A stretch of DNA of 64,000 nucleotides from the NCBI RefSeq assembly GCF_030068605.1, contig NZ_JASJOU010000001.1, positions 124,001 through 188,000 on the forward strand, given 5' to 3'. Source of the stretch: Xanthocytophaga agilis. GTDB taxonomy: Bacteria; Bacteroidota; Bacteroidia; Cytophagales; 172606-1. A program made the position numbers and the translations under genes. Numbering within the stretch: position 1 is the first letter of the stretch; each line of letters starts with the position of its first letter. Shown one piece after another: positions 30,451 to 54,080 of the stretch. Below the pieces are notes generated by a model that saw only the letters and a list, made by a program, of their open reading frames with translations, was not told the origin of the DNA and ran no database searches.

Positions 30451-31650
30451 CTAATGCGGGAAATGATCGGTGAATTTATGACCATTATACATCTGTAGAA
30501 CTTCAAATGGAGTACATAGGCACAAACCAAGTTCCTGCTTGATGATTTTTTCTTCTATATCCTGACCAATAATTACCAGTTCATTTATACGATCACCAAA
30601 GTCACTATTCCACCGTTCCTCTATTAGTTGCTTGTTTTCCTGATATGCTGTATGTTGTTCTCTTTTCGCTTCCGGCATAGATGCCCACCATATACCCGCA
30701 GTTTCCGCTTGTAAGGATCCGCCTGCCTGGCTCCAGCTTAGTGCTACACTGGGACGAGAGGCCAGCCAGAATAGACCTTTACTACGAATAATATTGGCAG
30801 GCCAGTTCATATTTAAGTAGTTCCAGAATCTTTCAGGGTGGAATGGCAGTCGGGATCGGAATACAAAAGAGCTAATACCATACTCTTCGGTTTCTGGTGT
30901 ATGCGTTTTTTGTAACTCTTCCTGCCATGCTGACGAAATTTCAGCTTCTTCCAATGTAAAAAGTTGAGTATGAAGAATCTCTTTTAACTCAACCTGTCCA
31001 TACTGTGATTCAATAATACGGGCTTTGGGATTAAGCTTCTGTAGAATAGCTTTTAGCTCACCCAATGTTTGTGGTGTTACCAAATCTTCTTTATTCAAGA
31101 TAATAACATTGGCAAATTCAATCTGTTCTGTGAGTAAGTTAACGATTGGGCGATGGTCATCTTCCGTTTCATTTAGTTTTCTGTCTGTAACAGTTTCATT
31201 GCTTCCATAGTCTCTGGCAAAATTAAATGCATCCACTACTGTGACTAATGTATCTAGTTGTGAAAACCTGGAAAGATTAACACCTGATTGTTCATCTACA
31301 AAAGTAAAGGTTTGAGCAACAGGCAGTGGTTCTGAGATTCCTGAGCTTTCAATAAGCAAATAATCAAACCTTCCTTCTTTTGCAAGTTTCTCTACTTCCT
31401 GGATTAAGTCTTCCCGTAATGTGCAACAAATGCAGCCATTTGACATTTCAACCAGTTTTTCTTCGGTTCTGGATAAAGTATTTTCTCTTTGTACAGTCTG
31501 AGCATCAATGTTGACTTCACTCATATCATTGACAATAACGGCCACCTTCAGATTTTCTCTGTTATAAAGAATATGATTCAGGAGAGTAGTTTTACCTGCT
31601 CCCAAAAAGCCGCTGAGAACAGTAACAGGCAATTTTTTAACTTCTTGCAT
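30451..31650 (-). CDS. COG0523-family GTPase (CobW/ZNG1-like metal chaperone)
   Basis: GTP-dependent metal chaperone of 399 residues. The P-loop GFLGAGKTT is at 14-22, the family metal site CxCC at C73-C75-C76 ([11 protein letters not shown]), a Walker B-like [12 protein letters not shown], and the NKED base-specificity motif in [10 protein letters not shown]; the CobW C-terminal domain fills residues about 280-395. Members include zinc chaperones induced under zinc starvation and CobW of the cobalamin pathway. The palindromic promoter upstream favours a metal-regulated, probably zinc, role; the cobalt chelatase genes are 27 kb away. The frame opens at 31722, inside the palindrome, but ATG 31650 ([15 protein letters not shown]) matches the family start. 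Confidence 0.92.
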
Positions 31651-31662
31651 AAGAATAAGTAG

Positions 31663-31694
31663 TTGGTTACTTGAACGATGGATTTTTACTTTTG
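31663..31694 (+). promoter_or_regulatory. Promoter of the M28 peptidase gene (TTG-N21-TACTTTTG)
   Basis: TTG at 31663-31665, a 21-bp spacer and an exact TAnnTTTG at 31687-31694. Start of transcription is expected near 31701, giving a leader of about 88 nt. The -7 box lies within the left arm of the palindrome. Confidence 0.65.
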
Positions 31695-31724
31695 CAACAA
31701 TATTGCAAAAGTAAAAATCCATCG
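31676..31724. promoter_or_regulatory. Palindromic operator overlapping both divergent -7 boxes
   Basis: A perfect 22-bp inverted repeat: left arm 31676-31697, right arm 31703-31724, 5-bp spacer CAATA. Its inner part reads TTTTGCAACAATATTGCAAAA. Each arm carries a TACTTTTG -7 box, one per strand (31687-31694 plus, 31706-31713 minus), so any protein bound here would block both promoters. Size and symmetry are compatible with a Fur-family (for example Zur) dimer site, an inference from the metal-related gene it controls. It is not a terminator: no gene ends here. Confidence 0.72.
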
Positions 31725-31788
31725 GAACTTTTAAAAAAAATCCTACATTCGTTATCGCAACACCAATTGATCAAACCAACCATTCATC

Positions 31789-33888
31789 ATGAAGAAAACT
31801 TTCTGGAGACTTTCTATCTGTCTCTTTGTCGCAGCAGGAGCTCATACTCTCAATGCTCAATCTTTAACAGGCTTTTTACCTTCTCAACAGGCAAAAGAAC
31901 AAGAAGCTGAAAAACTTTTTTTGCAGAAACCTAAGCCTGAAGTCTATAAAAAACATCTGGAAGCATTGACTCGTGTACCACATTCTGCAGGTACTCCTGA
32001 GAATGCTCAAGTACGAGCATATATTGTAGATATAATGAAAAAAGCAGGTTGGCAGGTAGAAGAACCTGCCTATGACATTTTTATGCCTGTGTCTCCTGGT
32101 GAAAATACAGTTGAAATCATCACACCTGAGAAAATAAAATTAAATACTACTGAAACACCAGTAGATGCTTTTTCAGGCCAACCTCGTGTTACAGGTGGTT
32201 GGAACTCATTTTCCGGTTCTGGAGATGTAACAGCAGAAGTAGTGTATGCTAATTTTGGTACAAAGGAAGATTTTGAAAAGCTGGAGTCAATGGGAGTTTC
32301 TGTTAAGGGTAAAATTGTTATAGCCAGATATGGTGGGAACTTTAGAGGATACAAGGCCAAACATGCTCAGGCACATGGTGCTGCCGGAGTAATAATCTAT
32401 ACAGATCCGATAGATGCTGGATATATGAAGGGCATTACTTATCCGGAAGGACCTCAGGCAAATGATTCCTATATTCAGAGAGGATCTTTATTGACAGTAG
32501 ATTTTACAGGTGATCCTTTGACTCCTTTTGTGCCTGCATTACCATTAGATGGAAAGAAAAAAATAGAACGCTTATCTCCGGATAAAGTAGATTTACATAA
32601 AATTCCGGTGACTCCAATTTCTTATGGTGCTGCCAAAGAAATTCTAACCCGAATGACAGGACAGAGCGTGCCTGCTGGCTGGCAAGGGGCTTTGCCTTGT
32701 GCCTATCGGATTGAAGGAGGGAGTAAACTAAAAGTACATTTAAAAGTAGAGCAAAAGAATGACTTTACCAGAGTCACTAATGTGATTGGTACACTCAAAG
32801 GTAGTGAGTTCCCCGATGAGTGGATTATTCTGGGATCACACTATGATGCATGGGTTCATGGAGCAACAGATCCAAATAGTGGAACCTCTATGCTCATTTC
32901 TGTAGCAGAAGCACTGGGAGAGCTCACAAAGGCAGGTTACAGACCTAAGCGCAGTATTAAAATCTGTCATTGGGATGCTGAGGAATTTGGGGTAATCGGA
33001 TCGACAGAATGGGTTGAGCAATTTAAAGAAGAATTGTCTGCTAAAGCTGTTGCTTATATGAATGCAGATGCAGCTGTATCAGGTAAGTTCTTTGGAGGGG
33101 CTTCTTCCCCATCGTTGAAACAATTGTTAAAAGATGCTACACAGATGGTTTCTTATCCGGGTTCTGATAAGACAGTCTATCAGCAGTGGGCAGGAGCTAA
33201 ATCTGAACCTGAAGTAGGAAATCTGGGCGGGGGGTCGGATCATATCGCTTTTTATATGTATGTTGGTGTGCCTTCGTGGGGTGGGGGAACAGGTGGAGTA
33301 ACACCTTATCACTCGGCTTATGATAATTTTGAATATTACTCCCGCTTTGTTGATCCTACTTTTCAAATGGGGCCAATGGTTTCACAGATATTTGGTATTA
33401 TGGCTATGCGATTGGCTAATGCTGAAGTGATTCCTTATGATGTAAGTCGATATGCAACAGACCTGGAAAAGCATTTAAGTACTATTGAGAAAACGATAAA
33501 AGTGTATTCTCCTGCTTATTCTTGTGAAAAGCTAATGACTGCTGTTCATGAACTTGGAAAAAATATTGAAACATATAATGCAGCACAACAAAAATATATT
33601 CAAGCCAATAAGAGTGTTAAAAACACAACTGCAGAATTAAATAAAATTCTTATTTCTCTGGAGAAGTCATTTATAGATACACAAGGGATGGCCTATGGTA
33701 AATGGTATCAATCCTTGTATGCGTCTCCTGATCCTTATAGTGGCTATGCTTCCTGGATGTTACCAGGTTTTATGTATGAGGCATCTTTAAAATCAACAGC
33801 CAACCTGCCTCATTTAGAGACTCGCTATCTGAAGGCTATTCAATCTCTAAATGAAAAGGTAACGGCTCTGACCAAAAAGTTAGGATAG
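31789..33888 (+). CDS. Secreted M28 family peptidase (PSMA/transferrin-receptor-like architecture)
   Basis: Exported zinc peptidase of 699 residues, similar in layout to glutamate carboxypeptidase II. The signal peptide is MKKTFWRLSICLFVAAGAHTLNA. A PA domain (about 120-260; KGKIVIARYGGNFRGYKAKHAQAHGAAGVI) is inserted before the catalytic M28 domain, where GSHYDAWVHGATDPNSGTS gives ligands H351 and D361 and CHWDAEEFGVIGS carries the catalytic and ligand Glu pair. GGGSDHIAFYMYVGVPS and YHSAYD supply later ligands. A transferrin-receptor-like dimerisation domain ends the protein (about 580-699). Divergent from the COG0523 gene across the palindrome, suggesting shared metal control. Confidence 0.93.
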   Translation: MKKTFWRLSICLFVAAGAHTLNAQSLTGFLPSQQAKEQEAEKLFLQKPKPEVYKKHLEALTRVPHSAGTPENAQVRAYIVDIMKKAGWQVEEPAYDIFMPVSPGENTVEIITPEKIKLNTTETPVDAFSGQPRVTGGWNSFSGSGDVTAEVVYANFGTKEDFEKLESMGVSVKGKIVIARYGGNFRGYKAKHAQAHGAAGVIIYTDPIDAGYMKGITYPEGPQANDSYIQRGSLLTVDFTGDPLTPFVPALPLDGKKKIERLSPDKVDLHKIPVTPISYGAAKEILTRMTGQSVPAGWQGALPCAYRIEGGSKLKVHLKVEQKNDFTRVTNVIGTLKGSEFPDEWIILGSHYDAWVHGATDPNSGTSMLISVAEALGELTKAGYRPKRSIKICHWDAEEFGVIGSTEWVEQFKEELSAKAVAYMNADAAVSGKFFGGASSPSLKQLLKDATQMVSYPGSDKTVYQQWAGAKSEPEVGNLGGGSDHIAFYMYVGVPSWGGGTGGVTPYHSAYDNFEYYSRFVDPTFQMGPMVSQIFGIMAMRLANAEVIPYDVSRYATDLEKHLSTIEKTIKVYSPAYSCEKLMTAVHELGKNIETYNAAQQKYIQANKSVKNTTAELNKILISLEKSFIDTQGMAYGKWYQSLYASPDPYSGYASWMLPGFMYEASLKSTANLPHLETRYLKAIQSLNEKVTALTKKLG

Positions 33889-35395: not shown

Positions 35396-35441
35396 ATAAT
35401 TAATTATATTTTCAAAATATTTTGAAAATATAATTAATTAT
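35396..35441. repeat. 46-bp perfect palindrome at a promoter
   Basis: Twenty-three bases and their exact reverse complement with no spacer: right half begins ATTTTGAAAATATAATTAAT. Almost purely AT with a TTTTCAAAATATTTTGAAAA core. It covers the -33 element of the promoter for the gene at 35502 and has no T-tract geometry of a terminator, so an operator or a cruciform-prone regulatory site is more likely. Confidence 0.8.
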
Positions 35442-50193: not shown

Positions 50194-50210
50194 TTTGATA
50201 TCTTTTACAG

Positions 50211-50256
50211 AATAATAAAAAAGACTGAAGAACATTCTTCAGTCTTTTTTATTATT
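50211..50256. terminator. Bidirectional terminator with perfect 21-bp stem
   Basis: AATAATAAAAAAGACTGAAGA paired exactly with its complement around a 4-nt loop (ACAT), between convergent genes, with A/T-rich arms giving T tracts on both strands. Confidence 0.92.
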
Positions 50257-50259
50257 CTG

Positions 50260-50856
50260 TTAGCTGCCTGTTCCAAAGTTTGTACTTAGCGTAATATAGC
50301 CTGGATAAGGAATCGTAAGGCTGCCAATCATAATAGATGGCTTTATCTTGAGAGATAATTTAGGAGACGGTTTATTCCCTGCTCCAACAAGCCCTAAGCC
50401 TAGGTTGATATTTTCATCCATGCTATTCTTAGCCATGATTTTGCGTAAATCAGCATTGATTTGTACAGGAATAGTCGCTGTTCCTCCACTGGGGGCAATA
50501 CTTACTCGATCATTTAATGTACCCGTTACGATCTCTTTGCCTTCAATCAATAATATCCACTCCATCTTATTCATGGCAGCTGTCGCATCATTAGGATTTT
50601 GAGCATCTACATTAATAGTTAGTGATAAAGGCATCGTACCTGATGCATAAGCTGCTGTTAATTTACCAGCTTGCAGAAGGTTCATGTCGGATAAACTTTT
50701 TATCTGCTGTACATTAACGCCTGCCAGGTTTGTGTTTTGGACTGAACTCATTCTAAACTGGCACTTGGTAAAATTGGCCATTTGTTTGAGTTGAGTACAG
50801 GAAAAAGAAACCAGCAATAGTGCTATTATCCATAATAAAGAACTTTTTTTCAACAT
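50260..50856 (-). CDS. LEA type 2 / WHy-domain-like lipoprotein
   Basis: A 198-residue lipoprotein with lipobox LLLVSFSCTQ at the signal-peptide end. The mature part resembles the water-stress/hypersensitive-response (WHy, LEA_2) beta-sandwich: LSLTINVDAQNPNDATAAMNKMEWILLIEGKEIVTGTLND...ATIPVQINADL, with the NPN motif typical of the fold. Such proteins are common in Bacteroidota but poorly understood. Assignment rests on motif recall, so moderate confidence. Confidence 0.72.
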   Translation of the reverse strand: MLKKSSLLWIIALLLVSFSCTQLKQMANFTKCQFRMSSVQNTNLAGVNVQQIKSLSDMNLLQAGKLTAAYASGTMPLSLTINVDAQNPNDATAAMNKMEWILLIEGKEIVTGTLNDRVSIAPSGGTATIPVQINADLRKIMAKNSMDENINLGLGLVGAGNKPSPKLSLKIKPSIMIGSLTIPYPGYITLSTNFGTGS

Positions 50857-53087: not shown

Positions 53088-54080
53088 CTAAGAATGGTTA
53101 ATGGCAATGATTTTGTTCAGAATGGATGTGGGGGTTATGTTTTGAATACAGAAACATTGATGGGGAGTGTGGGAACATGTATTGCAATCAGATTGCATAA
53201 AAGTGATAGTAGTTGCATGAATACCTACTGGCTGCCATCTGCCTGGATGCATCGGGCGAATAGTAGGATATAGACCAATTGCATATTTACCTAGTGCCGA
53301 TGCAATATGAAGTGGGCCTGTACTGCAGGCAATAAGTACATCCGTATGGTGTAAAAAGGAAATTAATTCCTGTAAGGATAGCTTACCCAATAGGTTAGTT
53401 ACATTTGGTAAAGTAAGTATCTCAGGAAATTCTTCCTGAATTTTAGCTTCCTCTGTTAATGTACCTGTTATAAATATCTGAATAGTAGAGGGTAAGCTAC
53501 TAGCTAATTCATAATAATGTTTTAATGGCCATTCACGGGCACTTCCTTTAGATTTCGGGTGTAAAACGAGTTTTAGGGAAGACTGTTGTAATTTTTCTTC
53601 CAAGAATGCTGGAATTGGAGTTTTAATTTTTTTTAGTCCATATAATGAAGAAATCTCGTTAAGTGTTACAGTTTCAGATATGCCAAGCGGTTTAAGTAAT
53701 TTAAAGTTAAGCTGTGTCTCATGCAGATTTGACTTTTTTCGGCTGAAATTGACACGTTTGTTACAATAAAGCCAATGCCACCAACGATGACTTGTACCTA
53801 TTCGTAAAGGTATTTTTCTTTTAGCAGCCCATCGTGCAACTTCACGGTCCGGAAATAAAAAAACGATTGTATCAACATGATCTGTCTTATAGTTGTCTAG
53901 TTGATCTTTATCCCAGTACTCATCAATATAAATAGAGGCACTGATTACAGGTTCAGTATATTTCTTCCCAAGAAAAATGATATGAGAAGATGGATATACT
54001 TCTTTAAGTTTACCTGCTACAGGGAGAGATAACACCACATCGCCTAAATTGTCAGTACGGCTTATGATGATTGTCTGCAT
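53088..54080 (-). CDS. Glycosyltransferase family 9 (heptosyltransferase-like)
   Basis: A 330-residue GT9 enzyme, the family of ADP-heptose:LPS heptosyltransferases. Typical features are the N-terminal IIISRTDNLGDVVLSLPVAGKLKE, the nucleotide-binding block LVLHPKSKGSAREWPLKHYYELA and the C-terminal ACSTGPLHIASALGKYAIGLYP. A Cys-rich tail (CNTCSHTPHQCFC) follows, common in Bacteroidota GT9 proteins. Sugar donor unproved. A TATCTTTG -7 box lies at 54124-54131. Confidence 0.92.
   Translation of the reverse strand: MQTIIISRTDNLGDVVLSLPVAGKLKEVYPSSHIIFLGKKYTEPVISASIYIDEYWDKDQLDNYKTDHVDTIVFLFPDREVARWAAKRKIPLRIGTSHRWWHWLYCNKRVNFSRKKSNLHETQLNFKLLKPLGISETVTLNEISSLYGLKKIKTPIPAFLEEKLQQSSLKLVLHPKSKGSAREWPLKHYYELASSLPSTIQIFITGTLTEEAKIQEEFPEILTLPNVTNLLGKLSLQELISFLHHTDVLIACSTGPLHIASALGKYAIGLYPTIRPMHPGRWQPVGIHATTITFMQSDCNTCSHTPHQCFCIQNITPTSILNKIIAINHS

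Follow-up and report, generated by a model that had tools for sequence, protein, structure and literature searches.

The window analysed here, a stretch of 64,000 nucleotides from Xanthocytophaga agilis, carries a COG0523 GTPase gene and an M28 peptidase gene in divergent orientation. The features of the locus are listed below with the basis of each assignment in brackets:

30451..31650, minus strand: COG0523 GTPase, ZigA-like, with a CICC motif, 399 aa from the ATG at 31650-31648 (homology, profile match)
31663..31665, plus strand: TTG, possible -33 element of the M28-facing promoter (sequence only)
31676..31697, plus strand: left arm of a perfect inverted repeat, CGATGGATTTTTACTTTTGCAA (sequence and repeat search)
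31687..31694, plus strand: -7 box TACTTTTG, facing the M28 gene (sequence; consensus TAnnTTTG)
31692..31708, no strand: predicted Zur box TTGCAACAATATTGCAA, one mismatch to TTGCAACA-N-TGTTGCAA (recurrence, conservation)
31703..31724, minus strand: right arm of the inverted repeat (sequence and repeat search)
31706..31713, minus strand: -7 box TACTTTTG, facing the COG0523 gene (sequence; consensus TAnnTTTG)
31789..33888, plus strand: M28 peptidase, glutamate carboxypeptidase II-related, 699 aa (PF04389 match, alignment)

The perfect inverted repeat with 22-bp arms and a 5-bp spacer, as given in the preliminary description, was confirmed at 31676-31724 between the two genes, where it reads CGATGGATTTTTACTTTTGCAA-CAATA-TTGCAAAAGTAAAAATCCATCG (spacer CAATA). 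The longest perfect arm in 15 first-order random sequences built from the window was 12 (spacer ≤12). The listed COG0523 ORF begins within the palindrome, with an ATG at 31722. Relatives show homology only from the internal ATG (31650-31648) onward, and the palindrome is therefore most likely intergenic. No Rfam family matched at gathering score across 31000-32500.

Perfect inverted repeats (arm ≥14, spacer ≤8) were surveyed in 409 kb of the genome, and 30 were found. The repeat studied here was the only one between divergent ORFs; the others lay between convergent (13) or codirectional ORFs (10), inside an ORF (1) or at the end of a stretch with one neighbour unseen (5). Within the window, one long perfect repeat stands between convergent ORFs and resembles a terminator (50207-50260), and another, A/T-rich and with spacer 0, stands between codirectional ORFs (35396-35441); as these are equally long, palindrome length by itself is not unique in the window. 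The palindrome folds strongly (-24.5 kcal/mol as DNA, z -13) and the long perfect repeats of this genome lie mostly at gene ends, as a transcription terminator or a purely structural hairpin would; its position between divergent starts, however, and a 17-bp core that is common to other loci, the outer arms being unrelated to theirs, make such a role very improbable. The terminator reading was rejected for this repeat on its placement between divergent ORFs.

Each arm of the palindrome carries a -7 box, one on either strand, and a TTG (31663-31665) stands 21 bp upstream of that on the plus strand, as had been stated before and as the letters bear out. By eye, no comparable -33 element was seen in the local sequence for the minus-strand box. 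The TAnnTTTG consensus occupies -12 to -5 in the part of the source considered (PMC9723704). By this rule, transcription is predicted to start at about 31699 (plus) and 31701 (minus); two polymerases could therefore hardly initiate simultaneously, and the two directions would be mutually exclusive. Both messages would have 22 bases in common near their 5' ends. Among 43 boxes located before COG0523 genes, TAnnTTTG overlapped the box facing the gene in 19 cases, facing away in one, in both directions in one and in neither in 22; overlap with a -7 box, which occurs on both strands in the window, was thus seen for 21 of the 43, all starts being predicted ones.

The conserved core is shorter than the palindrome. 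The element TTGCAA-N5-TTGCAA that had been proposed as the core proved correct and incomplete: refinement on the first relatives examined gave a 17-bp box, TTGCAACA-N-TGTTGCAA, with an 8-1-8 layout. In the own genome, TTGCAA-N5-TTGCAA was found at ≤1 mismatch in 59 places (18 for the reversed pattern), and exactly at four sites. The exact sites and the C5 pair adjoin the COG0523 and M28 genes of the window; at L011, a gene for a CFFCG protein that precedes a TonB receptor and has a dCTP deaminase-type gene on its other flank; an ABC ATPase, an FtsX/MacB-type permease and a DUF3299 protein, divergent from MerC (L016); and, at L019, a TonB receptor and a lipoprotein, of which the second has two sites separated by 38 bp. 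The remaining places among the 50 of 59 that were listed lay mostly within called ORFs and looked like chance matches; a one-mismatch match at 53182-53198 of the window, within a called minus-strand ORF, is probably of this kind. The refined box at ≤3 mismatches gave 65 sites against 35 for the reversed pattern in the own genome, a weak excess that counts against the Zur reading. The CFFCG protein (L011:3555-4028) had no Pfam match. Small lipoprotein-like proteins are encoded behind boxes at L019:8501-9106, L150:1490-2119, L152:777-1352 and L214:4162-4728, and no Pfam match was obtained for the first three.

In relatives the refined box was enriched, with 62 sites at ≤1 mismatch in 29 of 59 genomes (own included) versus two places for the reversed pattern. 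Of 148 genomes from the order, 43 contained the exact 16-mer TTGCAACANTGTTGCA (control places, 2). In a draw of 395 genomes across the phylum, just five had the exact 17-mer, and the box is therefore lineage-limited or variable. The genes behind boxes include those for COG0523 proteins, some Fur-family proteins, TonB receptors, MerC, ZIP, GTP cyclohydrolase I and DUF1826 (ZIP, GTP cyclohydrolase I and DUF1826 assigned by Pfam). With tblastn, 79 of 110 box loci gave a match to one or more of 16 query families and 31 gave none; some of these places had been fetched twice, two of the queries derive from box loci themselves, and the TonB and ABC matches are unspecific. Thioredoxin-reductase-like or pyridine nucleotide-disulphide oxidoreductase genes (GGSYAGLSAAMALGRSLR) also adjoin boxes in several genomes (L068:1595-2530; L135, L136, L138, L155, L159). 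Where boxes lay less than 120 bp apart, the commonest distance was 38 bp (10 of 29 distinct pairs); tandem boxes at this distance occur upstream of COG0523 or its operon at L036, L041, L044, L046 and L288. The preliminary description had expected the core near metal genes, and MerC, the TonB receptors and the ABC/FtsX/DUF3299 cluster, together with ZIP in relatives, agree with this. A dyad-symmetric site that recurs ahead of zinc-homeostasis genes is expected of a Zur operator, and the box recurs in this way; ZIP, GTP cyclohydrolase I, DUF1826, ABC/FtsX/DUF3299 and ZigA-like COG0523 are families linked to Zur.

The COG0523 protein is a P-loop GTPase with a CxCC motif, and GAGKT and CICC were invariant in 14 sequences. 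It scored 562.4 bits with the NCBIfam ZigA model, below the cut-off of 600, and is therefore described as ZigA-like only. A box at ≤2 mismatches was located within 1 kb upstream at 35 of 80 COG0523 loci and was absent by this rule from 45, the reversed pattern being found at 0 of 80, so that the conservation in relatives anticipated earlier holds for this gene. Less than 1 kb of upstream DNA was available at L255, L277, L314 and L315, the first two of which have a box. No box was found in the upstream search at L309-L315, seven COG0523 loci whose records are labelled as Proteobacteria, Bacillota and Anaerolineae. L250, L255 (with box) and L256 carry non-Bacteroidota labels and may be mis-binned. 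These comparisons give good support to a predicted Zur operator that overlies the promoter of COG0523.

Three FUR-family matches were obtained in the own genome. By eye, the first adjoins a purA-like ORF and the second sits in a heme-uptake-like cluster. The third, a small Fur-family protein (L103:2847-3320; G000:C23:86930-87217), matches PF01475 with 46.3 bits (cut-off 23.1). Its H (IHKV) and C (YALC) are in register with the presumed zinc-site residues of E. coli Zur (4mtd), and its CxxC...CxxC pattern was invariant in 11 aligned relatives; by eye, the other two proteins have no IHKV/YALC/CxxC...CxxC pattern. The NCBIfam Zur model NF008646 gave a weak match to this candidate (32.5 bits vs cut-off 167). 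Its structure as predicted without an alignment (pLDDT 39) was set aside. The candidate zur gene has no good box, the one site being a 3-mismatch match 2.9 kb downstream. Among 49 loci with Fur genes of this third type, a box lay within 300 bp of the domain start at eight by a loose rule and at four with ≤2 mismatches; in two of the 49 (L200, L206) the frame is very long and perhaps not a Fur gene. No box was near any of 30 canonical Fur loci, and the contrast of 4/49 with 0/30 is not convincing taken alone. At L169, L195, L203 and L208, shorter Fur-family proteins that look distinct from the candidate of the own genome have a box directly in front.

Recurrence of the box and its conservation at COG0523 support the earlier suggestion of zinc and Zur, and the best explanation of the whole is, with high probability, that a Zur-type zinc repressor uses the palindrome core (31692-31708) as its operator. 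The protein that binds, zinc as the signal and repression as the mode are inferred. A zinc-loaded dimer of the L103:2847-3320 protein would sit on TTGCAACA-N-TATTGCAA and cover the -7 box of the ZigA-like COG0523 gene; because the arms are symmetric, the -7 box pointing to M28 would, we propose, be covered too. On zinc shortage, the repressor would leave and the chaperone GTPase would be produced. The regulon would also hold the TonB receptors, MerC and the ABC/FtsX/DUF3299 transporter. COG0523 proteins can serve metals besides zinc, and neither TonB receptors nor MerC are exclusive to it, which would suit a box for a Fur-family regulator that responds to a different metal (iron, manganese, cobalt) or for some other dimeric repressor. 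ZIP, GTP cyclohydrolase I, DUF1826, ABC/FtsX/DUF3299 and ZigA-like COG0523 jointly fit zinc starvation, however, and the 30 canonical Fur loci fetched are free of the box, and a different regulator is accordingly held to be improbable.

The case for the M28 gene as a second target is weak. Residues 40-665 of its product align with glutamate carboxypeptidase II and, by eye, the N-terminus resembles an export signal. When GSHYDAW, DPNSG, DAEEFG, NADA and YHSAYD were aligned to 9hlw, the presumed metal-ligand positions were in place. A second M28 copy elsewhere in the own genome (40% identical) is without a box. Relatives of the M28 protein, defined at E 1e-40 or better, were found in 10 of 59 genomes, and among these a box precedes the gene only in the own genome (G000) and its sister genome G001. 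In the DNA fetched, no box accompanied the closest relatives (G002, G016, G034, G040, G054); three of these five genomes have no COG0523 match, and that of G016 is weak (E 4e-11). An M28 neighbour was sought at 80 COG0523 loci and found at none. G002 is a fragmented genome in which COG0523 and M28 lie on separate contigs. COG0523 has a pair of core matches there, spaced 38 bp and each with one mismatch, and M28 has none; a further fragment (L235) has a weak core match that is not positioned before M28.

On these data, M28 was rejected as a conserved member of the regulon, and the zinc chaperone/peptidase unit of the preliminary description found no support as a conserved pairing. Of the dimer-type operator that was to shut both genes, the part over the COG0523 -7 box is supported and the M28 half is weak. 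The same distribution speaks for an operator that serves COG0523 alone, M28 being next to it by chance and regulated separately, with the -7 box that faces M28 a by-product of symmetry. Against this, the M28 start is 81 bp from the box in both G000 and G001, and the promoter towards M28 shows a -7 box, joined in the window by the upstream TTG. Control of COG0523 alone is a serious contender, at somewhat below even chances, and joint control of M28 with COG0523 in this organism is judged about evenly balanced.

The outer arms of the palindrome are unlike those at other boxes and do not belong to the shared box. Perfect symmetry continued outward for 8 bp or more at 13 of 183 distinct boxes (≤2 mismatches, all fetched loci), with 0.30 expected when right flanks were permuted and at most three per permutation in 1000; as the loci were picked for boxes, this is a rate among boxes. 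The first box set, which prompted the idea of long arms, contributed eight extended boxes among 109 sites (0.15 expected). Later loci had 94 sites, 20 of them already counted, and the 74 new ones gave five extended boxes (0.31 expected, maximum 2 in 1000). A set of 82 loci selected by their Fur or M28 genes (287 kb) contained 12 long repeats; one coincided with a box, and none was flanked by divergent ORFs. The 13 extended boxes lie between divergent ORFs (4), +/+ ORFs (6) or -/- ORFs (1) or inside called ORFs (2); with only four in divergent settings, a two-way promoter was rejected as the general cause of long arms.

As the outer arms are unrelated in sequence, a common contact sequence is unlikely, and the arms probably arose by outward palindrome growth instead of as extra contact sequence. 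The excess of extended boxes with unrelated outer arms suggests that such growth has occurred repeatedly, and in the window it perhaps made the two-way promoter. By template switching, a single event can create a perfect inverted repeat or turn an imperfect one into a perfect one, as stated in the part of the source considered (PMC8794818); this was demonstrated there for hairpins of RNA genes, and its extension to the operators described here is our proposal. One might go further and suppose that a Zur box of the Bacteroidota's own, often fused to a -7 box, repeatedly seeds long perfect palindromes in independent events, and that growth in this lineage copied the COG0523 promoter to the opposite strand and so recruited an adjacent GCPII-like zinc peptidase to the zinc regulon at one stroke; taken whole, this scenario is rather unlikely.

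The box and its regulon are testable, and they concern a large bacterial group for which the literature searched holds no description of either. Palindrome growth in a promoter may be a route by which an adjacent gene joins a regulon and is countable in any genome set. No described Bacteroidota Zur box was found in the literature searched (RegPrecise lay outside the scope of the search). Five exact box strings were sought in paper texts; 770 papers contained one or more of them and, among the matches listed, only the shortest, an 8-mer, appeared; a motif printed as a logo would escape such a search. The available portion of a review on Zur (PMC6103462) contains no 'bacteroid', and that of a study on COG0523 (PMC2770081) contains neither 'bacteroid' nor 'flavobacter'; Cytophaga has a single mention there, within a table on UreG.

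COG0523 genes behind Zur sites, as treated in the latter source (PMC2770081), share with the present case the gene family and the predicted logic. A Zur-controlled endopeptidase of Vibrio cholerae (PMC6381278) is likewise a peptidase in a zinc starvation response; according to the part of that source considered, it is a cell wall hydrolase, whereas the enzyme encoded here is M28/GCPII-like and its control is not conserved. The Zur regulons of other phyla, as far as covered by the portion of the review considered (PMC6103462), resemble this one in having a palindromic operator in the promoters of uptake systems, and two-box promoters are known among them. Their boxes are typed 9-1-9 or 7-1-7, whereas that described here is TTGCAACA-N-TGTTGCAA, of 8-1-8 type, and about half of its copies before COG0523 genes overlap a TAnnTTTG -7 box.
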